In this document: piece by piece, positions 25,992 through 54,700 of the stretch | Position numbering within the stretch: the first letter of the stretch is position 1 | How the letters are laid out: every line of letters begins with the position of its first letter | Source: Ceraceosorus guamensis | Lineage: Eukaryota > Basidiomycota > Exobasidiomycetes > Ceraceosorales > Ceraceosoraceae | Length of the DNA stretch: 64,000 bases | NCBI RefSeq assembly: GCF_003144195.1 | Contig: NW_020290005.1 | Location: 186,001-250,000, forward strand | Direction: 5' to 3' | Position numbers and translations under genes: made by a program | Notes under the pieces: model-generated | The model's input: only the letters and a program-made list of their open reading frames with translations | Database searches by the model: none | What the model was told of the DNA's origin: nothing

Positions 25992-28900
25992 ATGTCTCTC
26001 ATCTCGGACAAAGAGTGAGTTGCAACGCGATCTCAGCCATCAACTCATGCTATCTCAGGGCTCACCACAGACTTCCTTCACAGATACGTGATACACACGC
26101 TCAGGCTGGCCTACTTGCGGCGCATAGATGATAGCGTTGGGCCCCGCGTCATCACTTTCCCTGCCATCAGACACGATGTAGGCTCCTCTGGCCATGCGAA
26201 TGGGCGGGAACACGCATCAGCGCGCATGGGTGACTTTGATGATGCTCTGGACGCGGAAGGGAATGGTCAACTTGACGACTTTGATCATCATCCCGACTCG
26301 CACGTCATGATAGCAGGCCTATCTGACGCAAATTTCAATCCAGAGCTTCGCGCAGTCTGCTCCCCCAAGCCGCGGCCAGAGTCCTTGATCAGGCCGGGAT
26401 TCATGCCCGTTCCCCCTGCAGAGATGGTCGAGACAGCCAGCAAGGGTCCGAGAGCTTCGCGCGTCGGAAACGGACTTCGCTACACGCAAACCATCTACGG
26501 ACCTGGAAGAACAGGGGCGCTCGGCATGCGAGTCTCCGGAAAGCGCGCACCTTCTCTAGACAATAGCACTTCGGCGCTAGCCTCGGATCTGCGCGAGGAT
26601 AGGACAACACGGTCTCGTCGCCGCAGCTCAGTCCTCGATCGTGGTGCAGAAGATGAAGCCGAAGAGCCGCTCCGAGCTGCGCTTGCCCGGCGCTCGAGCC
26701 TGAAGCCTAAAACAGATCAAAAGCCGCGCAGTCTCGAAGTGCCAGAGCTGGCTCTGCAAGCTGCTTCGGTGGAGAGCGGCAGAAGCGGTCTGTTACGCGG
26801 CGAGATCTCCACTGATCCCCCAGCTGCATCCGATCCGCGCCTCAGCAACCCATGGCGGGACTCTCAAAGCAGCTCGGAGGATCGCAGCTACAGCCACAGC
26901 TACAGCTCGGCAGGCGTACCTCTGCCAAATGTGGGCGCCACAGGTCGCTCGGATTCCGGCTTAAATACAAGAAACTTAGAGCGCAGCACTAGTGTGATCG
27001 ACAGGCAGGTACGTGGAGGTGCAGGTGCCCGAGACCAGCGACTGGGTGCTCGGCGTCGAAGTGCGAGCGAGTCGGCAGGAGCACTCATGGACTCAGGGGT
27101 GGATTTGCTTCGTGGAGAGGCGATAGAAAGCGAAGATGAAGGACCAGAGTCAAGTGACGACCGCGCCAGGTGAGAGCACCGTTTGGTATGGGAAGCACAT
27201 GTTGTCCGAAGCGCAAGTGCGCTGACTTGCTGCTTCTTCTTGGCATGCATGCATCCAAGCTTCAATGAGGGACTGCGTCGTGCAGAGAGCGATTCGACAG
27301 TCTTCTCACTTGCCTCCTTACCTTCGGCGCGCTCGAGACCGACTCTGGCGATTGATGCTCGGAGGACAGCGGACTCTGCTTTGAGCAGTCACTACAAATC
27401 GCGGCACATTTTCACTCCTGTCAGCGAAGTCGACGAATCCTCTCTGCGCTCAGCAGCGCCGAGGTCACGAGAGGAGCTCCCCATCATGAACGTCAGTCCC
27501 CACCATGACTTTTCATTGGACGAGACTGTGAATCGAGATGAAGAAATACGATCTTCTACGAATACCGCGGACGATCGACCGCGTGGAGTGCCACCCTCGA
27601 CAGGCACCGAAGCGCACACAAATTCGGCGTCCGCGAACCTTCTCGATGATTCAGAGTCATCATACGATTATTCTCTACGCAGCTCTCTTTCTCCAAGTCC
27701 AGGTCAGCCCAGCAAGCAATCCTCACCCTCTGATACGCGCTCGGCTCAGCCAAGCACAATTGCCTCGCAGTCAAGACCGGGCCTGGCCGCATCTGCGGAC
27801 GCTCAAGGCACCGCTGCGCCAACCACCTCAGCGCTTGGTCTGTATACCGGTAAAAGTACCAGCTCGCGACTTGATCCAGCACCACCTGGTGTGGGGAGCA
27901 CGCAAAGACCCAGTTCCAGCATGGTCACTCCCCAACTTGACACCGCTTCGAGTCGCATACAAGCTGATGCGCGACGCCCATCTAGATCCCGCTCGCGTCT
28001 GCCACAGCAAGCCGCGATCATGACAGACTCTCCAGAGGCAACAAACGAGTATTTCAGCTCGTTAAAAACTGACGCCAAGAGTGTGCAAGCTCAACACGCA
28101 GCTCGACCGAAGGCTTCTGCTTTGTCGAGGAAGCTCAAAGCTCAATCCTCGGGCCCAGCCAACGCCTTTTCCCAAGCTTACGCTGGTGTTGGAGCTCGCA
28201 ATGGAGCGTCAGCAGGTACGGTCAACATAAAAGTCTACTTCCCTTGGGCAGAAGATGAACAAACGCCAAGCGTCAGGCCGCTCAGCGATGCTTTGTCGGT
28301 TGAGCCGCGTAGTCGCAGCATGGTTCTCTGCCTTCGCCGCGATGCTGTCATGGAAGAGGTCGTGGGCTACGCAATGATGTGCTACGTCGATGAGGGCTGG
28401 GAGCCTCGCCTGGACGATGGAGATCCGGACGAGGACGAAGAAGCTCTCGAGATGCGACTGAGTACGATCGGCTGGGCACTCCGCATGGTCGAGGACGGCG
28501 AGGTGGATGATGATTTCCCAGCCGTCGATCGAGGCTTAGTCGTTGGCAAATTTGGCGCCGACGAACTTGCAATTTGCGAAGCCACGCCCGCACAAGGTAT
28601 GTGCTGAACGAACACGACTGTGCAGCTCCTGCATGCGACGCTCACCGCTCTTTTGTCACGTCAGTCAAGCAACATCTAGCTACTCAGACTCCTGCCCAAA
28701 AAGCGGCGCGAGCCGCTGGGCGTCCAGGCATCCCCACACCACCACCACCTCCTCCTCAAAGCACACAAGGCGATCGACTCGCAGCACCTGCACGCTCGCT
28801 CGCACCTGGAGCTGTCACAAGTGCAAGGCTTGCCGCAATGGGAGCCAATGTACCAGCCGGTTCGCTGCTAGACGTCGCAGGGACGCCCATCTTTGCATCC

Positions 28901-31103: not shown

Positions 31104-34100
31104 ATGTCAGATCAGAGCTTTGCCTTTCACCTCGCGCCAGAGCGGGCGTCTGGTTCAGCCTCGCCACTCATGCGGGACTACGCCTCGCCCATCAGCTTGG
31201 GCGAAGGCACGGCAGAGCATCCCTTCGAGCTTGCGTCCTCACCAGCACCACGAGCCGATATGCCACCGCGCCGAGACCTTGGATCGCTCTCTGGTAACCG
31301 CTCGCATAGCGATGGTGCTTCACCATCAGGCTCTGACACCGTCTACTTCTCCTTCGAGGATTCGCCGCCTAGACCCCTACAGACTGCTTCTCGCTTTTCA
31401 CAACGCCATGTCACGCCAGATCTGACACAGACATGGCTTACAGGCTCAACAAGCTCTCGCGTCAATCTCGACTTGCCTTCGCGTCACCAGCCAGTAGATC
31501 TCTCGTCTAGCTTCACTGGATCTTCGAGTGGTGTCGGCAGAGGTGTTGCAGGCCCTAGACGCCGACACCTCCGCGGCTCTGCCGTAGGAGGAAGTCCCAC
31601 TGCGCTCTCAGATGCGAATTTGCTGGATCAGGATAGAGCCGACATCTTCTCTCAGCTTGACACAGCGCCGAGCAGGAACACTCGGCAGAACCCTGATTCT
31701 CTGGTATCGTCATTCAGGCCAAGATCGAGGGTCTTGAGTGGCCGATTTAATCCCATGGACATCGAACAGCTCAACAATGTCTCATCTCTCGCGGCTCCGT
31801 TGGCCCCTTTGGCTGGAACGACCTCAAGCAGCTCGATCAGAGCCAAGCGCAACATCGACCGCGTCGGAACGTCGCCGGATTTGGCTTCCTTTGATGCACC
31901 TGCCTTGCGCAGCGGTGCCCTCGGCGCGACCTCCGACTCCCTGCAATCTTGGCCAAGTTCTCAAAGGAGCGGTGCTCGGCGAGAAATCGACGACTTTGTC
32001 GACGCCTCTTGGTCGACGACATCTTCCTCGAGCTCGGCCTTGGCTGCTCCATCAGGCAATGCCCACAAGCGCTTGCGCCGTCGTGCACGCAACGCCAGTC
32101 CTCCTGCAAGCGATAGCATGGTCACTGAATCCAGTCCACGCTCTCAGCCAGCTTCAAGAAGATACGACATTACGTCGCGCAATTCGGTCAGGGCTGAAAG
32201 TCGCGAACCGTACGTCTTCGAATCTTTGTTTCCTCCTGCCTTAGGGCCTCCTTCCAGCTTGTCAGAAGAGACTCCTGCTGTTGTTTCGGCCCCATCCGAT
32301 AGGGCTATGGCTACTCTGCCCGTGTGGAATGAGCTTTGGTCCACGTATCGAGAGCCGAGACGCATGCGGTCTTCGTCGTCGATACTCTCCATCCAGGCTA
32401 TCAGAGACAGAGCCACCAGCTCTGCTGTTGCTGGCTCAACCCATCCTCATTCAGGTAGCAGCGCAAGGCTGACTCGCCGCCGTTCCCAAGAAGACAGCAT
32501 GGATGTGGATGGTCTGGACTTGCTCAGCAGCAGCTCATCGGACCTCTTGGCGATGATTGGAGAGCGGGCTTCAGCCAATGTGAGCCAGTCGACTACGACG
32601 TTCGACTCCGACTCACTGATGGACGATGTGCCTCTGGCCTCGACGCGCTCATCTCACGCGTCGTACGAGGATTCTCTTGCTCATGGGTCACCTAACGTTG
32701 CGGAACCCGACACTTCGGAAGGGCCAATTTTACCCCTTTCCTCGCGTTACCCTCAGCTTCTTTCGCCTTCTGGCTCGAACGGCTCCACAAGCACTTCCAG
32801 TCAACGTGACCTCGCCTTTGGCACAAGTACGAGTGTCTCGCCACGCGACAATGACAATCGTTCGTTCGACGCTCGCCGTCGACTGGCACTCCGTCAAGCG
32901 GCAGCCGTTGCGCCTCGCATCGATTCTGATCCACCCCCGCTTAGCGCCTCTTCGCAAATGTTCAGATCGAACTTCCATCGCGCTTTTGACCCCGTCGGCA
33001 CAGCTCGACAGCGGTTTCAAACTTCAGCCGCGTCGCGGCGCAACGCACTACTTTCATCAGGTCGCTTCGCGTCGTACGACTCCGACGACGTGGATATGCT
33101 GGCTCTCTCGAGCGATGCACTTCCATCTGCTCGAGCTTACGCCTCTTCACATGCGTCTTCAGAGCGGCCACGAGGTTCGCCAAGCGAGGCGGCAACGATG
33201 AGGCAAGGAGTTAGTGATGGGGTCACGTCTCTTTCTCAGCGGATCGCGTCTTTACAAGATGCGATCTCCGAAAGTCAAGGAGTCTTGTCCGACCAGCGGC
33301 AGCGCAACGCGGACCTCCTATCGAGCTTGGATGATGGATCTTCGGACATGGACATGACGGGAAGCGCCAGCTCTGGGCCAGTCGATTCCCTTGCGAGCCT
33401 GAGCACCTCGAGCGGAGTGACATCCCCTAGCAGGACAGGCGATGCACTCGACGCCAATGATGCGGGCGAGTTTGCGACAATGCTGTCGCGCTTGCGCTCG
33501 ACTTGGGAGCGCGCTCGCGACCTCGTCGGTGCGGGGGTCACTTCCACCACACCAGGCGACTCGAGTGTCTCCGATGACGCTCTCAGTGATGCAAGCTCAG
33601 CTCGGAGAGTAAGACGCGGTATGTCGGTGGCCAGCCGCGTCCGACCAGCCGCTTCTTCCAGCATCTTTAGCCCGACTGACTCGGTCAGCAGGGATGGGAT
33701 GGCGGCCGACAGAGCTCGATTTGATCTATGGTCGGAAGTCAGAAGCGTGACCGAGCGAACTAGCCGTGTGCCTCACCTAGCAGGTCTGGATTCAGTGGGT
33801 CTCACCGACCTAGGATCGAGTTCCGCTGCAACCAACGGCACTCAAGACGCGTTCAACGCCACGACCGCGCCGCCCGTGGCTGCTTCGCGAGAGCTCGCAC
33901 TGTCGGCTGATCCAGACTTGAGCACATCGAGCGCTTGGACGTCAGGCCCTGATCGTTCGACCAGCCAGCTTCGTCGAACGAGCACGCTTGACATTAGTGG
34001 ACGCCTTCGCGGACCTACTGCTCGCCAGAATCGTGCATGGCTGGCTAGCGAACGGAGCGTTGCGCGAGGGAGCAGCGTCGCCGAAAGTTCCGCGCCACCT

Positions 34101-36320
34101 ATCGACTTCCTTTCTGTCGCCTCGCGTCGCCGATCTGAACTCGAGGCTCGATATTCAGAACACCTTGGCAGACTTGCGTCATCAGCCGTAAGTCAAGTGC
34201 CCCTCTCGATCCTTGTCCTTGCGGAAAGACTGACGCTCACTCACATGGTCAAACAGAGCCGTGAGAGCCCTACGCCAAGTGCTGCTACGATGAGCTCTAG
34301 CTTGCTCGTGCCCTTTGATCAGCAGCGGCGAGTTACAGGAACTAGTATTGACGCGGCCCGGGCCTCGTTGCCATCCGCAGACCGCGGCGGCACTTGGCCA
34401 AGCCGAGACAATAGCTCCAGATCTCAGCAGACGTCATCAGCTACGCGGGTCCCGCTCGAAGTAATTGACTTGACTGGGCCGGAGCACGACGACGACATCA
34501 CTGGCGGGCAGTCGCCGAGGATCGGACGCTGGGCTGCAGGCTCTCGCGAGGCAAGGCAAGCGCGTTACGAGCAGCTGCGAGCCAACCTCAGAAGAGACTC
34601 TACCAGAGTCTTGGAACGCGACTACACGTCGCCCGCATCTGCTGCTGCCCGACCTTCAGAAAGCGGTGGCGTTTCACCAACCCGGCCATCCTTCGCGAAT
34701 CTCTACTCGCCTAACCAAGAATTCGATACGATCTTCCCAAACTTCATCTCACCTGCAAGCGACGCAGCTGGCACGCTTCAGTCCACTGACTACGGCGTGT
34801 CTGCGCCTAGGATTCCACGGCGCGAACGACTCCGCGATGCTCTGGAACGATCGAGCGGCGCGCGTAGCGGTACACTACGAGGAGTGCAGGCGTCCGCTCC
34901 TACAACGCGCGTTCCAGCCTCCTCGACGGGACGTACTCGTCTGCGGCATGGAGACCTCCTCTCCGCTGTATATATCCCCGTCCAGAACGATAGTGCGGCC
35001 ACTAGTGCCTGGCACTTTCTCGCTCCTACCGATGCAGCAGAAGCCCGTCGCGCAGCGGAGCGTGAGCGAGACCTTTCATCTACGCTTACGTCCGGAGGAC
35101 TCACAGCTCTCAATCATTCGCGGCCGAGGCAAGACCACCTCCTCTCCGCTGAGAATATCCCCATCCGACCTCAGCGCGACGATGGTGCGGCTACTGATGC
35201 CTTGCAAGCGATCCTCGCTTTCCAGGATGCAGCAGAAGCCCGTCTCCCAACGGAGCGTGCGCAAGACCGTTCATCTGCGGTTACTTCCGGAGGCCTTACA
35301 GCTCTCCATCACTCGCAGCCCAGCTCGACGACTGATGCACGCAACTCCATTGATCGGACCGCATTCGGAGGACGCGCAGCAGATCCACTCTCGTCTAGAC
35401 TGCTCCACCCTCTGCCGTCGTCCAGAGCACATCATCCCGAGCGTCACGAACCGACAGCAGACCCGTCAGAACGTGTCGTGGCGAGATGGCGTCGTGAAGC
35501 TGCCGATGCAAGACGAGCCGCACTCAGCTCTACAGAGAACGGCACTGGATCCAACTATCATGCGGCGCGAGCGAGCGAGCTCAGAAGTAGGTTCCAGAGC
35601 ACGTTGAGGGCCGGACAGAGCGGTGCAGGAGGAAGGACTGGCGACAACGACACCTCATCTAGCATCAACAGTCATCTCGTAAGTCTTTCGAACACAGCAT
35701 TCGCCAGACCGCAAACGCTTACAGTCATCCCGTCTTGCAGGCGCAGATGGAATTTGATCTCCGTGCTCATTGGCGTTTGAGAGACGAAATACTCGGCATC
35801 TCATCCAATCGCACGCCATCCAGCGTCATTGATAGTCTACCAACTTGTGTCTTTGCAATCTGGCAAGGCGGCTCATGTGTCACGCCGAAGCTGGAGGCAT
35901 TGCCTGTCACAGGCGAGGGCAAGGGCAAAAATCGAGCAGGTCCTGAGAGCGATCGTCTCCGTCTAGAAGCCCTTGCAGCAGCAGCTTCGAGAGAGCCACG
36001 TTGTCCCATCTGCCTGGACGAGTACGAAGCCGACACGATGCTCATGAGCGCGCCTTGCAACCACGCCTTCCACAAAGGTGCGTCTGCCGAGTCCACAGCT
36101 TGCAACAACCAATTGCTGATGCTGACAAGCTTGAGCTCGTTTGAAATCGCAAACAACAGACTGCCTTAAGACCTGGTTGTCTACGCGTCGCACGTGCCCC
36201 ATGTGCCGCTATGATGTGGGAGCACATGGCAGTCGCAACATTGTACGCCGACCCAGACGGAGCGAACCTCAAGACGCAGCAAACACTGCAGCCTCGCTCC
36301 TACAAGAGCCTAACCAGTGA
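31104..36320 (+). CDS. Large serine-rich RING-H2 protein, probable E3 ubiquitin ligase with a SUMO-interaction-like motif
   Basis: Model join(31104..34187, 34257..35678, 35741..36077, 36160..36320), 1,667 aa. The first 1,500 residues are Ser/Arg/Asp-rich and look disordered. The C-terminus carries a complete RING-H2 finger at about 1590-1630: CPIC, then C-x-H, H-x2-C, and CPMC, with the spacing C-x2-C-x14-C-x-H-x2-H-x2-C-x10-C-x2-C; the second half lies on the last exon, so the 36078-36159 intron must be removed. RING-H2 proteins usually bind an E2 and transfer ubiquitin (family knowledge). At about residue 1097 (34461-34475) the sequence EVIDLTGPEHDDD is a textbook SUMO-interacting motif: a hydrophobic core followed by acids. 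Only one clear copy is seen. An internal duplication of about 62 residues lies at 34940-35320. The first intron (69 nt) has no stop and a length divisible by three, so its retention would add 23 residues. The substrate is unknown. Confidence 0.85.
34940..35320 (+). repeat. Tandem duplication inside the RING gene (two units of about 186-190 bp)
   Basis: Two adjacent protein units share the order DLLSA/HLLSA, YIPV/NIPI, DSAAT/DGAAT, DAAEAR, E(R/A)xxDxSSxxTSGGLTAL and HSxP. The DNA also still matches in blocks, for example ACCTCCTCTCCGCTG in both units near 34953 and 35139. The units lie in the disordered region before the RING finger. The age is moderate: protein identity is roughly half, concentrated at the ends. 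Confidence 0.75.
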
Positions 36321-37252
36321 GCTCTCAGTCATCGATCAAGCTACGATCCGCTCGCATCGTCTTCACGGTGACTTGTCGAGCCTAGGTTTTCAACGATGCC
36401 GCTGCTCGACACGCTTTCGACACACCGGTCCTCCCCGCCCTTCTCACGATTGTTATCACGAGACTTCTGACATTGATCATGCACAATCCTGCACGCGCAC
36501 ACACATTTTCAAGGCTGGCTTCTTCAACAATACTCTACTCTCACCACAGCCAATGACATTCGCCATCATATATCGCTACGATGACTTCCCTCCAGACACC
36601 ATCGAATGGGTGTCACTTCACTCCGCGTTTGCTCGTCCATCTTGCCTCTTATGCACACATCTCCATCATTCTTACCAAGAATTGTGATCCACTTGTGCGG
36701 ATTTGGGCATCACATGACCCTTTGGTGAGGTCTGTGCGGACGTTGACGTCGACATTAATGAGCCTAGCGATTTAGAGGAACACATGAAACATGGTTGGCC
36801 GGCGCAAAAGTTCTCGTACGATAAGATCTTTGCGCGAAATCGAATGTTTTGATGACCAACGTCTGTACGCTGGTGGGCCATGCGCCATGAGGCAGCCATG
36901 CTGCATGCGCGTGCTGATGGCATGCCGCATCTTCTTGAAAAGCCGCGGATGGCCGGTGCAGTGCGTGCTGTGGAGAGAACAGCCGCGTATGTTGCGTATA
37001 TGCTGATTCATGTGAGTGCCCAGAGCGTCGTGGAGCAGCATGGAGAAATGAGCTCTCTCGTATAGGTGAACGTGTTGGCGCACTTGACTCTGACTCAATA
37101 CCTGGTTCGAGTGCCTACTCGACTGCTCCCATATTGCCGTCCATCACCAACGCATCTTCCTCCCGCACTTTCTAAGCGAAGCATCGTCAAAATCTGGATC
37201 TGAGACTCTTCCGCCTCTCACGAGTCGCTCCTCTTGAACAGTGGCCATCGAG
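36321..37252. other. Intergenic region upstream of ferrochelatase
   Basis: The 3' flank of the RING gene and the promoter of the ferrochelatase gene. No gene, RNA or repeat is recognised. The ferrochelatase frame stays open upstream to a GTG at 37241, but the first ATG is at 37253. Confidence 0.5.
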
Positions 37253-38855
37253 ATGGTGCTGTCTCCATCTGTTGGCACTTCGGCGGCTACGCGCCTGGCT
37301 TTCAGGCAAGGCATCAGCGCTCCTTGCCGAGGCGCAACCGTGCCACGCCTCGCGAGCTCATCGCTGACACACGACTCTGTGGCGCTTGCAAGACGGCTAA
37401 GTGCGCGCGGCATCTCTTCGAAGACTAGCGCTAGTGCAGTCACCGCAGCCGCTGCTCCCGCTTCAAGTGTCGCGGCTTGCAGTCGAAGCTTGGCAACGGT
37501 GGCCTCATCAAACACCGGCAGCAAGCCTCCCACTGCGGTCTTGCTGATGAACATGGGTGGTCCATCGACACTGAACGAAGTGGGCGACTTTTTGTCCCGC
37601 CTATTCCACGATCGTGAACTTATCCAACTTCCCTTTCAATCGAGACTGGCGCCGCTCATCGCAGCTCGCAGGACGCCCAAGATTAAGGATCAGTATGCAA
37701 AGATTGGTGGAGGATCTCCAATCTTGAGATGGACCAGAACCCAGGGAGACGCCATGGCGACCATGCTGGACGAGCTGCACCCCGCCACTGCCCCTCACAA
37801 GGCTTACATCGCTTTCAGGTACGCCAGACCTCTGACGGAGGAAGCACTGGATGAGATGGCCAAGGATGGCGTCACGAGAGCCGTCGCTTTCACTCAGTAT
37901 CCTCAATATTCCTGCTCTACCACCGGCTCCAACCTCAACGAGCTGTACAGAGAAATCCAGCGCAGGAGAAAGGAAGGCAGACCCGAAGCTGATATCAGGT
38001 GGAGCGTCATTGACCGATGGCCCACGCACGAAGGGCTCGTCGAGGTGAGTGACGCCACAGCAGCCGCAAACTCGCGCCATCGCGCTGATTTTGCTCTACA
38101 TTTTGGGATTTTCAGGCTTTCACTCAAAGGTTGAGGGACACCCTAGAGACCTACCCAGCCGAGATCCGCCAAACGGTGCCGATCATGTTCTCTGCGCACT
38201 CGCTGCCCATGCAGATCGTTTCAGGAAGGGGCGATCCCTACCCAGCAGAAGTAGCAGCCACAGTCGCAGCAGTCATGGCGCGTCTTGGTTGGTCAAACCC
38301 TTACAGGGTTACTTGGCAGTCGCAAGTTGGCCCAAGCGCCTGGCTTGGACCTCAGACCAGCGATACTGTCAAGGGATGGGCGAAGCAGGGTCACAAGCAT
38401 GCTGTGGCTGTGCCTATCGCATTTACCCAGGATCACATCGAGACTCTCTACGAGCTCGACATTGAGCTGGTGGAGGAAGCGGAAGAGGTGAGACAAGCAT
38501 TCGAGATGTTCCTGGGCATCTGCTAAGACATCTCCCCACGTTCGGGTGCTGACGCCTCGGCAAACGCTTTGCCTTTCCATTCTGCCAGCACGGCATGCAA
38601 CTCAAGCGAGTCGAGTCGCTCAACGATCACCCGCTCTTCTTGCGGGCATTGGCGGACATTGCAGCAGCTCACCTGCAATCCGTCGAGGGTACCAAGGCGA
38701 CCTCCGAGACTTCCTCGGTCGCTGTACACCCCTTCGCGCAGGGCAATTGCAGTACTCAGATGGGTCTGCGTTGCCCTGGGTGCACCAATGCAGTGTGTGG
38801 TGAACAGAAGGCCTTCTTCAAGAGTGGTGGTGCACCACTCGATGCTGCTGCTTGA
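37253..38855 (+). CDS. HEM15: Ferrochelatase, mitochondrial, with a [2Fe-2S] ligand motif
   Basis: Model join(37253..38044, 38116..38487, 38589..38855), 476 aa. It inserts ferrous iron into protoporphyrin IX, the last step of heme synthesis, at the inner mitochondrial membrane (family knowledge). The first 90 residues are Ser/Ala/Arg-rich without acids, a matrix-targeting presequence. Family motifs follow: [78 protein letters not shown] with the catalytic His at about 292, [34 protein letters not shown] and ESLNDHPLF. The cluster ligands of animal and fission-yeast ferrochelatases are all present: the Cys in YSCSTTG plus CPGCTNAVC (Cys 450, 453, 458). Budding yeast ferrochelatase lacks this cluster, so this is the cluster-bearing type. 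The last intron (101 nt) must be removed to reach the Cys motif; read-through stops at 38526. Confidence 0.96.
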
Positions 38856-41749: not shown

Positions 41750-44294
41750 ATGAAGCTCTGCACTGTTCTACTCCCCGTTGCTGTGTTGTGGTGAGTACGG
41801 TGCAGTGCACAGAGACGGGACCCAGCTGACCAAACGTCGCCGCACGATCAACCTGATGTTAGCAGCCTCGCCTCGTTGAGCCATTTTGCGTATGCGTCGC
41901 CGCCTCTCGCCGCAAAATGGCAGAATGTTGCCGACGCATTAGCCATTCCGCAGGAGCGTGGGAAAGTGTTGGCTCGCTCGCACTCCCCCTCTACTACACC
42001 TCCCGTACTTGAGAAGCGCTGCGAAGCGGCAAGGGCTGCCATCGCACAATGTCTTGCCAGCGCCAAAGAGAAGGCAAAGAGGCTCTTATTTGGAGAGCCT
42101 GATCCCTACCACGGACTTGATTTCGCGATATCGTATCGTCATCCGAACGATTGGTACACCGACGGCGAAAGGCGGGCTCACGTGATCATGAATATGAAGG
42201 ACAATGGAGTCAGGAATGGACAAGGAGGCAGACGTCGATTGCGCAACCCGATCAGTGTTGAACCGCTGTCGGCACAGGCCAGATGGACAGCGAATCGAGT
42301 CAAATGGCAAGCCGAAGATCCACTAGAAGAACCTGATCCGCAGCTGATGCGTCAAGAGCTAGGAGATTGGTTCTTGCCTCCCGGCGGACATCACGCACAC
42401 ATCGAACGCAGGGGTTTGGTGCGAGCTGCACCCCGCGTCGTTCTCGAAAAGCGCTGCGACCCTGCGACGGCTGCCATAGGCTGCCTGATCAAGGTTAAAG
42501 AAGCTGCCCAAAGGCTTTTGAGGCTCGGGCAGCGACAGCCTAACCCCTATCAAGGCCTGGAACATGCAGCATCGTGGCGTCACCCCAACGAATGGTACCT
42601 CGACGGTCAAAGAAGAGCGCACGTCCTCGTTAAATTGAAAGACAATGGCGTCCGCAATGGGCAGGAAGGTCAACCTGGACTGCGAAGACCCATATCGCTC
42701 GAGCCTATCGGCGACGAAGATAGGACTGTGCTCACCAAGGTCAAATGGAAGCCTGAAGATCCACTCGCTCAGCCGGATATTCAGCTAATGCAACAAGAGC
42801 TGAGGCAGTTCGCGCTGCTGAGGCAGAGGAGCGTGACCGGTGCTGCGTCTTCGGCCATCGAGCGACGATGTATTCAGGGTGCTCTGGGTCGCTGCACGCA
42901 ATATGTCCAAAAGCTTTTGGGTCTCTCGAACGATACAAGAGATGCTGTGCGAGCAGCCGAGCTGCGCGCCCAGGTACTGCCAAATGAGGACGCGGGACAC
43001 GGCGGGGCCCGACGGTCTGCAGAAAGAACTGGTCCTGTGCGAACATGGCGCTCAATCTGGTTCGAACATCCCAGATGGATGTACGCTAGCGATCGTAGGG
43101 GCGAAGCTACTGTCTTCATCCGGACCAAGGACAACGGCAGACGCAATGGCGAGGATGGGGCGCGAAGCAAACGACATCCGATCGCTATCGATGGCGACAT
43201 CTACAAGTCAAGGCTGAACCGAGCGGGCCTCAAATGGACTTTTGAAAGGCCCCAACAGCATCAGCACCAAGAAAGAAGAGACGGCGCTGGTTCCTCAGGC
43301 CCTGTGCTCCACAAACGCTGCGTTCTCACGGCATTGCGTCAGTGTCTTCGCTACGTCTTCGACTCGAGAGTGAACGAAGAGCGCTCGGGTGCGAGGCTTC
43401 CCTTGCTTGGTGGAGGTTCCCGGCGCGATCCCACACGCACTCCAGACGTGTACAAAGGATTCGCAGTGGCGCATGTCATGCCCAACTTGCCCGAAAGCTC
43501 CACCACTCGAAGTATCGACATCTGGGTCGGTGCAGAAGGCAATGAGGTACGTAACGGTGATAGATCTGCGCGCAAGCGCAATCCCATCGCTGTAGATCGC
43601 ACAACCTTGGGTTCAAGGCTGGCTCGCACGAAAGTGCGTTGGGAGATTCAAAGGGTGCCACCACCTCAATTGCAGAATCCTAGCAATGTGCAACATACGA
43701 TTCGTCGCAGGGATGTCTTGCAGGGTGGCAAGACGATGAAGAGAGCGCCAGGAATCGGAGATGACGCCGTTCTCGTCAAACGCGGCGGCACGGCCAATCA
43801 TGCCCGGTCCAGAGGGCGCAGCTCATCGTTGACGAAGCGATGCTTCCGCGTCGCTTTCGAGAGCTGTAAAGATGCCGTTTCAGAGGTGCTCTTTGGTCCA
43901 AGCGTAGAGAAGCAGATCGCAGCTCTGACGAGAGCTCCCGTGTCGCAGTGAGTTGCCCGGTAGGCAGAGGGCGTGGTCATCGTGCTGTCCCGCCTGCATG
44001 AAGAGACTCACAAGGCTCCATTGCAACCCAGAAAGAACAAGGATCGAGCCCGTTCGGATCAAGTCCAAATCTGAGAGGCTCAAAGAAGACCTCGCGCGCC
44101 CGTCGATCCGGGCGAGACGTTATTGGAGCAACAAGAGCCTCGAGAGAGCGAACTTCGGCAAAGGTTTGGGCGACTCGGTTCAAAAGGGGAGGATCAAGCC
44201 CTACGAAGAATTAGTCATTCGACTGCCGAGGGAGGCGCACGAAGATCTCTTCAAGGCAAAGAGGGGCAAGGACGAAGTCACCGTCCGGCGCTGA
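41750..44294 (+). CDS. Secreted protein of five diverged units, each behind a Kex2-type dibasic site
   Basis: Model join(41750..41790, 41863..43947, 44015..44294), 801 aa. A 13-codon first exon splices (72-nt intron) to complete a signal peptide, MKLCTVLLPVAVLCSLASL then SHFAYA. After a short pro-region, dibasic sites each directly followed by Cys recur: EKRC (TGC at 42020), EKRC (42455), ERRC (42869), HKRC (43319), TKRC (43841), about 140-175 residues apart. Each is followed by a second Cys 8-10 residues later and an amphipathic helix. Units 1-4 share a core: KDNGVRNGQ, KDNGVRNGQ, KDNGRRNGE, EGNEVRNGD, then R-x-PI and a KVKW-like end; units 1 and 2 also share RHPNxWYxDGxRRAHV. Unit 5 keeps the KRC-Cys start but its core has decayed or changed. 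The last exon is less sure: the acceptor could be at 44005 instead of 44014, and without splicing the protein ends at 43951. Kex2 in the late Golgi could release separate small proteins. No family recognised; an effector or signalling role is a guess. Confidence 0.82.
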
Positions 44295-44824: not shown

Positions 44825-47800
44825 TCAGCATTGCTGGGAAAAAGGTGCATGGTGATCTGCAAATTGTGTGGCAATGCGACTCACGTCAACGATAAAGGCC
44901 ACTTGCTCGGCCGTCTCGATAGCCTTGGGACTGCGCCTTCTGCGAATCGTCTCTATAAGGCGCTCCACCGTCGAGATCAGCCGTTCAGCGTCGGATTCGG
45001 TCGAGTCTGCCGATGCCTCGTTTGCAGCTCGTGCCGGTCCCGTTGCGAGAGCTTCGCACTTTGAGCCAACAAGGCCTAGCTTGTACATCCAAGTGCACGC
45101 GATCAAGCCAGCTCGGCCAACACCACCTCGGCAGTGGACCAGGACATGCACGCCTTTGAGCGTGTAGTCCGAGACGATGGATGTCATCGCTGCGTCGATC
45201 GTCTTGGCACACGTTGGAGCAAAGCCCTCTGCCATGGGCAGACGAACCACGTCCATGCCCAACTGATCAGCTTCTCGCTCGTACTCCTCCCAAGGCGCTC
45301 CGAGGAAAGCGAGCTCGGTGTCATCTAGACAGCAAATGACCACGCCTACACCGAGTCCTCGAATGCGCTTCAGGTCCAGTCCGAGGTCTCGACAAATGGC
45401 GCCTCTGCCACGCACAGGGCCCGTTAGACGCACTTTCTTTCCCGGACAAGAAGACAAAAGCATGTTGCCCATGGAAGGTCGATGTGCTTCTTCTTCAGTG
45501 GACCGTCCCTTTGCCTCAGCTTGGCCTTCAGCCCTTGCCTGCGCTTGCACATCTTCCGGTAAAGCGGCGCTATGCGCCGGGGCGACTGCTCCGCTCGCTT
45601 GGAGCGTAGCATCGCCGGCTGCTGATTCGACGGCATTCGTGCCGTTCGCGGTTGCGCTGATCGATGGACGAGATGGCTGAGACGCCTCATATGCCTTCTT
45701 CGCGGCCTCGATTGTCTCCTTCTCCACCGTCTTGCCCACTTGCACCATGTCCAAGCTGGGCGGTAATCGCAGCAACTTCTCGCCGCGCGCTTGCCGAGAC
45801 ACGTGAACGTCGCGAGCATCGACCGACGGCGTTGGCACTTCGTGCAAAGCTCCACCGCCAGCATGGGGGCTGCAATGTCCCGCCTCCAAAGTTTTCTGGC
45901 GCTCTTCTGGCGTTTTGAAAGCGGCATCTACACACGTGGGCAAGATGTTGAGGACGATTTGCGAAATCTCTGCCAGCATGTCAGGCGGTATGATTGGGCT
46001 GATGCTGTAGGGCAAAAGATGTGCGAGTCAGAATCTGTAACGATTGTAGTCAAAGCCGCGCCGCAAACGTACGTGATGGGATGTGTGTCGCTAGTCTTCA
46101 TTGCCAGAGCTTGCTGCGCTTCCTGCGACATGGATGCTACCGTGACACCAGTGGGGCGTGTTGCATCCGTGACGCTGCTCACGGCGCCATTCTCTCCGCG
46201 TCGCTGCTCGCTCTCTTGTGTCAGTAACACTTCGCATGCGAGAGGTCCAGCTACGGCAACTTGGCTGCCTGCACGAGCTTCAGGAGGTGTGTGTGCCTGG
46301 CTGTTGGATCCTTCGCCTATCTGCAATCCGAGGCCTTCACTAGGTTCCGTCGCCCCCAACCTGGGGCTTGAGACAGACTGGTGCGACTGCCCCGTGCCAT
46401 TGGGTGAGATTTGGTCGCCTTGCCGTGCCTGAGCGCCAAGGCTCGTGGACAAAGTGAGGTCGGCTGCAGTCGCGAGCCGCGGTGTTGTGCGAGCGCTCTC
46501 ATCTCTGGCGGAGCTCGCAGAGTGCGGCCGCTTGATACCGCAGGGCGGACTGAGAGCGACTTTGTCCAGGTCCATGCTTGTCTCGGAGCTGGTTGGACTG
46601 TGTGGAGCTTGCTGACGCGCCGCCGCGCGGAGCTCATCGTGCCTTCTCTGCCGTTTGTAAAGAAGCCACGCTGCTGATTCTGCTTCATTCTCCTCCTGCT
46701 TGCGCAGTGTTGCATCGGCGATGCGGGGATGCAGCATCGTGAAGGGCACATATCCATAGGGAGAACCTTCTCCGGACGAAAGAGAGCAACATCGAACAGT
46801 AAGCAACTTGCGAGGAAATCAATTCTTATCTCGCCGCCACTCACCTCGCGCTCCGTGCTTCAACTGGCTGTACGGGCTGAGATGATGTTGACTAGCCAGG
46901 CGGCTGAGATCGAGAAGATGCACCCAATACTCGTGCCCGCCCTTGCGCGAAAGCTGCCAGACGAGCTTGAGCAGTCGATCACGCTGCTCATATGTTGGGC
47001 CCGTTTTGACGTTGTAGTACAGCAGGGGCACAATCGCGTGCACTGTATCGCCATCCGAAGCGTGCTCCGGCGGAACGGGATTGATCGTGACGCGCACCGT
47101 CCGATCCAACTCCGCGCTCGTCATTGGCAGCGGCGACGCCAGCGGCTGACACGAGGTGGATAAAGATGACGTCTGCTGCTGTTGCCCAATTTTAGCAGCG
47201 ATCGCCGCTGATCGCCGCGGCGAAGTGCTGCTACCAGGCACTTGGCCGTGCTGTTCAACGCTTCGTACACGATCGCCATTTTGTCGACCGTTTGCGCGCG
47301 ATGCGGACGTATCGGAGGCAGCGTGTGTCCAAGCAGGAGCGTGAGTAGGTGCGTTGGGTGCGTTCGACCTTGTGGCAGAGAATGGCACAGCAGCACTTTG
47401 TGCCATTGCGTGCACTTCGCTCACCGCCGCGCAGGGAGCCGAAGGGCTGCCGCTTCGACTATGGAGTGCTCTTGGAAGGTGGTCTGGTCGCCTGTGAGGC
47501 TGAGGCGACGAGTTGTTGTTGTGAAACTGTCGAGGCGAACGCTCTACCAGACCTTGAGACATCTGATATCGGAGAAGATGCCCAACTATGGATGGTGGGG
47601 GTGTTTGGAATAGAGTTTCGCTCGTAAACCCTGCCACCGGAGCTCGAATGAGATTCAATCGCTTCGTGGTAGAGTGAGACTCGTGTGTCGGTGCTAGGGC
47701 CAGAAAGTTGACAAGGCAGGTGGATATTGAGGTGACAGTGTGTCCATAAAGCGTTGCGGTGGAGTTGCAGTAGGCCACGTGCAATGGCGACGATCTCCTT

Positions 47801-51745: not shown

Positions 51746-54700
51746 ATGGCCCCGCAACGCAACACCACATTCACAAAGTCCTTTGTGAGACCACGGAACG
51801 CCAGAAATCAGAGCTCAGGCGGCCTGCCGGTCCGGTCAGAGGCTCCACCGCCTTTGAGGCAACCGACTAAGCTGCAGAGAGCAAAGACTCTCACACGCCC
51901 CGAGCGCGGTCAGCCACAAGTTCCGCTCATCAATCCTGAAGGCGTTGGTCGAGGGGCCACGCGGCAGGGCTCTGGAAGTTGGACCTGTTTCAGCAGAGTT
52001 GTCACCTTCTGGGCACCTCCACCATGTATGAGAGCTTGTGGACTCAAGGACGCAAGCAGTCAACAGGCGTGGAGAGAAAAGTGAGTGCGCTTACAGCACT
52101 TCGTCTGTCCTTGATCGCGACTGATCTCAATGCCTGCGCACAGAGTGTCTCTGGTGTTCCTAGCCCTGCTGCTTGGAGGCTTTGTTGGCTTCTTCACCAT
52201 GGGCCTCAACAAAGTCTTGTGTCCGGCAGCTGCCCAGACTCTACCAAATCAGCTTGCGAGAGTCGGAAAAGACTTGTCATGTGAGTGCAGTGGTCTTGGG
52301 AAGTGCGGTGTGCAAACAAGTTGTGGACCCAGACTGATTTTGCTGCCAATTGGCCTGCAGCCGCTGTTGGTATCGCTGGATGGGACTACAACATCACAGC
52401 AGCCAAGCTGCCAGGTCAAGCTGAGGTCGGCTACAACATGTACACCCGAGCTAGCGACGCTGCAGGATACGATGTCACCCCTCTTCTGAAGCGCACTGCA
52501 GCAAATTATCCCTCTTGCAGCGGCCTGAAGGGCAAATATGCCACCAGCGACGATTGTTCGCCAGGTCGAGCTGGATTGCCCGCCTGCCCGCTGGGCGATC
52601 TGACCACTGCGAACCTCCAGACTCAACAATTGTTCAACACGAGCAGAAAGGTGGGCTACGCGTGGGAGGACTTGGCGGACGGCAAGTATCCTAACATGAT
52701 CGTGAGTAGGATGCAATACTTTTTGAAGAAGTCATCTGTGCTCACCTGACACGTGTTGGTCGTTCTTGGCCTTGTTTGCATGTTACAGGTCATCGATGGA
52801 TTCGTCTTGAACATGCAACCTTACATCAACGCCAACCCGACGTCGATCTCTGGAGACGCGGTGGATGCTGCGATTCGGCGTGGACTTGCCCAGGATGCTG
52901 CAGGAGGACGAGACGCAACTCGCATGTTCACTGTGAATCAAGACCTGAAAAGTGCGATACCGTGCTTGAAGGAGAAGTACCTCGCAGGTCGCATCGATAA
53001 GATCACACCTGGCTGCTTCGTCTCCAACCTGTTCCTCTACGCTTCCCTTACAGTCATCTTGGGTCTAGTGTTCATTCGCTTCTTGATGGCCATCTGGTTT
53101 TCATGGTTCATGTCGTGGCGAATGAGCGCCACTCCGGATGACTACGGCACCAACCGGTTCAACCACAACAACATGCCTGGCGGTGCTATGACCACCGTCG
53201 ATAATCCCGGTCAGGCACCATGGGCGAACAAGGAGCGACCTACGCCTTCGAAAGCGCCTCGTCTTCGCCATGACGACTCGGGTCTCACCGCAACAACGAC
53301 CGCCGCTAAGATTGGTAACGAGCCCTACGTCGTTTGTCTGGTCACAGCCTATTCAGAAGGCGAGGAAGGCATATCGAATACTCTGACTTCCTTGGCAGAG
53401 ACCGAGTATCCCGATTCGAGGAAACTGCTCTTCCTCGTTTGCGACGGCATGGTCACAGGCTCAGGAGAGAGCATGTCCACACCAGACATCTGCGTTGGTT
53501 TGCTCGAGTCGGATGCGCGCTTCGGCACTCCTATGCCCATGAGCTTCATCAGCGTTGCCCAAGGAGCAAAGGCACACAACATGGCGATGGTGTACGCCGG
53601 CCACTACACACGCGGACGTGGTCACCGCACGCCTATGATTGTCGTCATCAAGTGTGGTACGCCTGGTGAAGCATCGGAGAAAAAGCCCGGCAACAGAGGA
53701 AAGCGTGATGGGCAAATGATCCTGATGAACTTCTTCCAGAGGGTGACTTACAACGAGCGCATGACTCCACTCGACTTTGATATGTTCCGCAAGATCCACA
53801 CGTTGATGGGGGTGACACCGGACTACTTCGAGCTTTGCATGATGGTGAGTCGTGCTCGGAGTCTCTCTCATGCCCCTTAGATGGAGACTAATCTTCGTCA
53901 ACGATCTTGGACAGGTGGACGCCGATACGAAGGTGTACCCCAAGTCCATGCGGATGCTCGTGAACTCAATGATGAAGGACCACATGATCATGGGCGCCTG
54001 TGGAGAAACACGTATTTCTAACAAGCGTTCGTCGTGGGTGACTGCCATCCAAGTTTACGAGTATTTCATCTCGCATCACATGGTCAAAGCTTTCGAATCG
54101 GTCTTTGGTGGTGTCACCTGCTTGCCCGGGTGCTTCTCCATGTACCGCATCAAGGCGCGAAAGCCGGATCAGGATTGGGTGCCGATCATCGTCAAACCGG
54201 AGGTGACGCGCGAGTATAGCCAGAGCGTTGTGCACACGTTGCATCAGAAGAATCTCCTCTTGCTTGGCGAGGATCGTTTCTTGACGACTCTTCTGCTCAG
54301 GACCTTTCCGAATAGAAAGATGGTCTTCGTGCCCCAGGCGCGGTGTCGGACAGAGGTGCCACACACATTCAAGATGCTTCTTTCCCAAAGGAGACGCTGG
54401 ATCAACTCGACTGTGCACAATCTGATGGAGCTCGTCCTTGTTCGAGATCTCTGCGGCACCTTCTGCTTCTCGATGCAGGTGAGTTGACTTCTCAATCAGC
54501 CGCTGATGCAAATTTCCGTGCTCACGTTCAAGCTTTACTTTCACAGTTCGTTGTCTTCATGGACTTGATCGGAACCGCAGTGCTGCCAATTGCTATTGCG
54601 CTCACCTACACCTTGATCGTCTCCTACTGTCTGAACGCTCCCAAGACCTTCGAAGAGGCAATTCCCCTCATGCTACTGGTTGCTGTGCTTGGATTGCCAG

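Follow-up and report, generated by a model that had tools for sequence, protein, structure and literature searches.

This report concerns a forward-strand gene in the region 41750-44294 of a stretch of the Ceraceosorus guamensis contig NW_020290005.1 (contig positions 186,001-250,000). The whole stretch of 64,000 nucleotides (nt) is called the window here, and all positions refer to it. The gene has a short first exon with a signal-peptide-like start, a predicted intron, and one long exon, whose frame (41864-43948, 695 codons, with the stop at 43949-43951) encodes four homologous, diverged units and a terminal stub, each opening with a pair of cysteines directly behind a dibasic site. The features are collected in Table 1. 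They are the basis on which the gene is considered below as a candidate precursor of several secreted proteins.

Table 1. Features of the candidate precursor gene (aa, amino acids)
Feature	Position	Strand	Basis
Exon 1: start codon plus the hydrophobic portion of a signal-peptide-like N-terminus	41750..41790	+	ATG, hydrophobic run, upstream in-frame stops
Predicted intron, 72 nt, GTGAGT...TTAG	41791..41862	+	Splice consensus only
Main exon (exon 2), 695 full codons and TGA stop	41863..43951	+	Open frame
Pro-segment, closed by LEKR, the first Kex2-like site	41900..42019	+	Site positions; signal-peptide end set by eye
Unit 1, 129 aa without basic end; core 42119-42334	42020..42406	+	Alignment, homology, predicted cuts
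End of IERR site, spacer, LEKR site	42407..42454	+	Dibasic positions, predicted cuts
Unit 2, 136 aa, with core at 42557-42769; followed by RR of the IERR site up to 42868	42455..42862	+	Alignment, homology, codon comparison
Unit 3, 148 aa, with core at 43052-43255; followed by KR of the LHKR site up to 43318	42869..43312	+	Alignment, homology
Unit 4, 128 aa; core 43448-43660	43319..43702	+	Alignment, homology
Linker with sites IRRR (RRR here), LVKR, and LTKR	43703..43840	+	Dibasic positions, predicted cuts
Unit 5, 36 aa: only the Cys-pair segment, core absent	43841..43948	+	Cys positions, shuffle test
Possible frame-neutral 3' intron, 84 nt (with it, the stop would be lost and 14 residues gained)	43948..44031	+	Consensus enumeration; uncertain

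Results

Exon 1 opens at the ATG at 41750 with the hydrophobic run MKLCTVLLPVAVL (mean Kyte-Doolittle value of 2.60 over residues 4-13), and the predicted intron joins it in frame to exon 2. Through this putative signal peptide the protein would enter the secretory route. The N-terminal segment then closes on LEKR at 42008-42019, and an ending of this kind, in KR/RR or LxxR, is one mark of the effectors with a Kex2-processed pro-domain.

The most striking regularity of the gene is in its cysteines. The exon 2 frame has 10 Cys among its 695 residues (exon 1 has its own Cys, left out of this count), and all of them fall into five pairs, with spacings of 10, 9, 8, 8, and 8. In every pair the first Cys stands immediately after KR or RR, the sites being at 42014, 42449, 42863, 43313, and 43835. 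When the protein was shuffled 20,000 times, [KR]RC occurred three times in 18 shuffles and never more often; with a second Cys required 8-10 residues on, it occurred twice in 2 shuffles and never more often. The observed number is five on either definition, so that this grammar, which was the starting point of the original prediction made from the sequence, is borne out in full. The five sites also resemble one another further upstream. All have Leu or Ile at P4, whereas of the remaining 18 dibasic positions 3 qualify, even with Leu, Ile, or Val counted there, and these three (42407, 43706, and 43778) all lie downstream of conserved cores. Independently of this gene, PMC8528282 gives Leu or some other aliphatic residue as what Kex2 prefers at P4. 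Cuts at [LI]x[KR]R would be predicted to give pieces of 52, 131, 14, 138, 150, 131, 24, 19, and 36 aa, leaving the four cores whole. The unit size first put forward, 138-174 aa, holds for Cys-to-Cys distances (145, 138, 150, and 174), whereas the pieces bounded by [LI]x[KR]R that carry the units are of 131, 138, 150, and 131 aa.

Units 1-4 are homologous to one another. Their local alignment scores range from 61 to 344, the maxima from shuffled sequences from 48 to 59, and for each of the six pairs none of 500 shuffles reached the observed score. The alignment has 15 invariant columns, with an invariant core of P, R, N, RNG, R, PI, R, and W that matches the motifs from which a common core had been proposed, and the longer motif RHPNxWYxDGxRRAHV does occur in both of the units, 1 and 2, to which it had been ascribed. 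Identity among the four is 26-53%. In the closest pair, units 1 and 2, agreement at codon positions 1, 2, and 3 is 65, 74, and 36%; the nonsynonymous divergence (dN) is 0.39, and the synonymous divergence (dS) is saturated and not computable. We read such a codon-position pattern as that of a truly coding frame and of an old duplication held by protein-level selection, and it points to units 1 and 2 as ancient duplicates kept by purifying selection. Among the remaining five pairs dN lies between 0.92 and 1.04; dS could be computed for two of them (2.25 and 1.79) and not for the other three, and we therefore make no statement on dN/dS for the unit pairs. The calculated isoelectric points (pI) of units 1-4 are 7.2, 9.3, 10.6, and 11.0, so the predicted products differ in charge, and with this span a general positive charge as the function of the products is rejected. 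No further copies of the units were found in the window by tblastn at E up to 1, the sole match outside the gene being one of unit 5 over 19 residues (E 0.95).

The situation at the 3' end is less orderly. A fifth full unit is rejected: unit 5 ends after 36 aa at the stop codon, without a core, and its similarity to units 1-4 is not significant, the scores being reached by 36, 372, 52, and 39 of 500 shuffles. Of the five units originally proposed, therefore, four stand as full and homologous ones and the last is a Cys stub. The gene had also been taken to run on to 44294 through a last exon. We enumerated donors of the form GT[AG]NG or GTNNGT in 43841-43960 and YAG acceptors within roughly 250 nt downstream; this gave one donor and one YAG acceptor only, which define the uncertain frame-keeping intron of Table 1, and no consensus intron into a last exon ending at 44294, rarer splice sites being outside the scan. 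An end at 44294 would need another frame and is unsupported. On the weak scale of a codon model trained on 11 long open reading frames (ORFs) of the window, the frame 43953-44291 scores -0.09 bits per codon and its part 44034-44291 +0.01, with +0.04 for exon 2, +0.01 for unit 2, and -0.06 for unit 5.

Relatives of the units were sought at several levels. Six Pfam queries and a PDB search with the unit profile, both at E up to 10, gave no match, and the only chain returned by the PDB search with a single sequence was that of a cyclin-dependent kinase 2-associated protein, at E 0.94. Unit-profile searches of viral contigs (34 pattern matches) and of prokaryote genomes (49 pattern matches) gave no confirmed relative; both are weak negatives, with no eukaryote sequences covered. 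No publication on such a gene came up in searches of an open-licence library, which is weak evidence of absence.

As to the surroundings, G+C content is 53-62% per 2 kb across the window, and ARAGORN found no transfer RNA genes in it. A Pfam scan of ten long window ORFs at E up to 0.001 matched four and left six without a match. Adjoining the precursor gene on the opposite strand is a phosphatase of the dual-specificity or protein tyrosine phosphatase type (44825-46015; PF22784, E 2.8e-10). On the forward strand lie a Sin1-type CRIM domain (27183-28607; PF16978, E 1.2e-30), a 1558-codon open frame that is Ser/Arg-rich by eye and was left unmatched by Pfam at the same threshold (31104-35780), part of a ferrochelatase gene (37241-38134; PF00762, E 1.8e-50), and part of a chitin synthase, in which Pfam recognizes Chitin_synth_2 and CHS4-like domains (52753-53880). 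The four Pfam matches, the G+C content, and the short consensus intron of the precursor gene are what one would expect of a fungus, probably a basidiomycete.

Discussion

The best reading of this gene, and one that we hold to be probable, is that its product is a secreted precursor and that a Kex2-type protease divides it into four mini-proteins, diverged from one another and extracellular. The product would be a prepro-polyprotein from which the signal peptide is removed first. In the late Golgi a Kex2-type protease would then cut after [LI]x[KR]R, taking off the pro-segment and freeing four paralogues, each some 130-150 aa long and with a Cys as its first residue, accompanied by short linkers and the 36-aa Cys-pair remnant. 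In each unit the two Cys are probably joined in one disulfide. The four products would have a common ancestral core and differ in sequence and charge, and this divergence (pI 7.2 to 11.0) suggests that they most likely act extracellularly on different partners or surfaces. Thus the idea of one precursor releasing paralogous mini-proteins, which the original prediction put forward, is carried by the P4 pattern, by the whole cores, and by the old, constrained copies; it needs to be amended to four units and a stub, with secretion and cleavage as predicted steps. A role in host contact or self-signalling, also suggested there, draws no support from these results.

Several observations speak against this proposal. 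Arg outnumbers every other residue (88 of 695), and dibasics are for that reason frequent in any case, with 23 overlapping dibasic positions in the exon 2 frame. Ala, which is also admitted at P4 in PMC8528282, would bring in the ARKR dibasic at 43574, inside the core of unit 4. Widening the motif to LxxR gives 8 sites, of which three are new positions, all within units. Two of these, LGQR and LRQR, are in unit 2 but outside its core; the third, LGSR, falls in the unit 4 core. The P4 test itself was chosen after the sites had been seen. Moreover, the AlphaFold models of unit 2 (from a 4-row alignment) and of the unit 3 core (4 rows) reached predicted local distance difference test (pLDDT) values of 43 and 40, too poor for a fold search.

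The Arg-rich composition is also the natural argument for a protein that is secreted or wall-bound and stays intact, as a multi-domain string of beads in which the dibasics are incidental; the 23 dibasic positions and 88 Arg are what such a view would draw on. Against it stand a dibasic before five of five Cys pairs and Leu or Ile at P4 marking those sites (Fisher p = 0.0017), and we consider it rather unlikely. Less plausible still is that the pro-segment alone is removed and the remainder acts as one multi-domain protein. The first 52 residues of exon 2 do terminate in LEKR ahead of unit 1, and effectors with a Kex2-processed pro-domain of this class are described in PMC8528282, but the same type of site recurs ahead of every later Cys pair and at the linkers.

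An equally improbable variant keeps the cleavage and changes what follows it. Kex2 would free the four paralogues and the 36-aa peptide in a fixed ratio, and the Cys pairs would link them by inter-unit disulfides into one extracellular hetero-oligomer. The N-terminal Cys pair is the only feature common to all five units, and unit 5, which has the pair and no core, would on such a scheme be a joining piece rather than debris. The helical moment of the Cys segments in units 1-5 was reached by 1264, 549, 54, 646, and 211 of 2000 shuffles; the segments are not clearly amphipathic and the Cys spacing varies, so that a rigid helix face bearing the two Cys is unsupported. With the helix test negative, nothing beyond the common Cys pair speaks for assembly of this kind.

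Finally, the units might have a degenerate T1-type ribonuclease fold like the ribonuclease-like secreted proteins of powdery mildews (the largest effector cluster in PMC9816061), a notion that is compatible with any of the readings above and that a by-eye likeness to T1-type sequences (a pair of Cys at the N-terminus, a stretch with His, Tyr, and acidic residues, and two strands, xxPI and RVxW) suggests as a lead, but it is very improbable: the six Pfam queries and the PDB unit profile gave no match at E up to 10, and the models are too poor to use.

If the gene product is processed by Kex2 into four mini-proteins as predicted, the Kex2 repeat-precursor route would yield diverged, protein-sized products in a fixed ratio, and not copies of one short peptide. 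This has a practical side. Surveys that want near-identical fragments after cutting at all dibasics would find no 70% pair in this gene, while a rule that also demanded Cys at P1' and an aliphatic residue at P4 would single out the real units, and such genes could then be counted.

Among known systems, the Kex2-processed repeat proteins (KEPs) of fungi are the obvious point of reference. PMC6339444 reports 1193 of them in 226 species from a survey of 250 fungal secretomes, with motifs of 3 to 352 aa and a tendency to longer motifs in yeast-like Basidiomycota; another survey, PMC7329392, has 7878 in 1345 of 1461 strains. As KEPs are described in PMC6339444, the present gene resembles them in its secretion-signal-like start and in its repeated units with KR or RR between them, and it differs in that units 1-4 are diverged (26-53% identity) with a fixed Cys start. 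Of the features by which KEPs are recognized, at least three repeated motifs split by KR, RR, or KK are found here, in the form of four homologous units with a Cys pair after KR/RR in five of five cases. Identical or near-identical motifs are not: in our own imitation of the published pipelines, cutting at every KR/RR gave 22 fragments, no two of which reached 70% identity. At the 40% threshold that PMC9769878 gives for short fragments, links appear in two pairs (54% and 45%) and also among three fragments that resemble spacers (14, 13, and 13 aa; 43-46%), so that this rule could flag the gene, through its spacers rather than its units. The proposed contrast with short, near-identical repeat peptides is softer than first put, and lies in the divergence of the units and their fixed Cys start. 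Since published KEP motifs reach 352 aa (PMC6339444), the size of the units alone is not new.

The SnTox3-type effectors with a Kex2-processed pro-domain are similar in that the pro-segment closes on a canonical Kex2 site, but as presented in PMC8528282 they give one product per precursor, where the present gene would probably give four. Rep1 and Hum3 of Ustilago maydis are, like the protein predicted here, single secreted precursors with Kex2 sites among many repeats (cleavage of Hum3 being putative), and Rep1 also yields one piece of 228 aa (PMC4617103), which further weakens size as a distinction. They differ in having amphipathic, imperfect repeats of 31-55 aa, for which the available part of PMC4617103 describes no Cys-start grammar, and the Rep1 peptides form amyloid-like fibrils (PMC4617103). 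These two are nevertheless the nearest models for a scheme of one precursor and many products. The KP6 killer preprotoxin is also alike, as one Kex2-cut precursor that gives more than one folded disulfide protein; it differs in being virus-borne and in having two subunits. Set beside these systems, the C. guamensis gene appears to be a diverged, large-unit form of the known fungal Kex2 repeat-precursor scheme.
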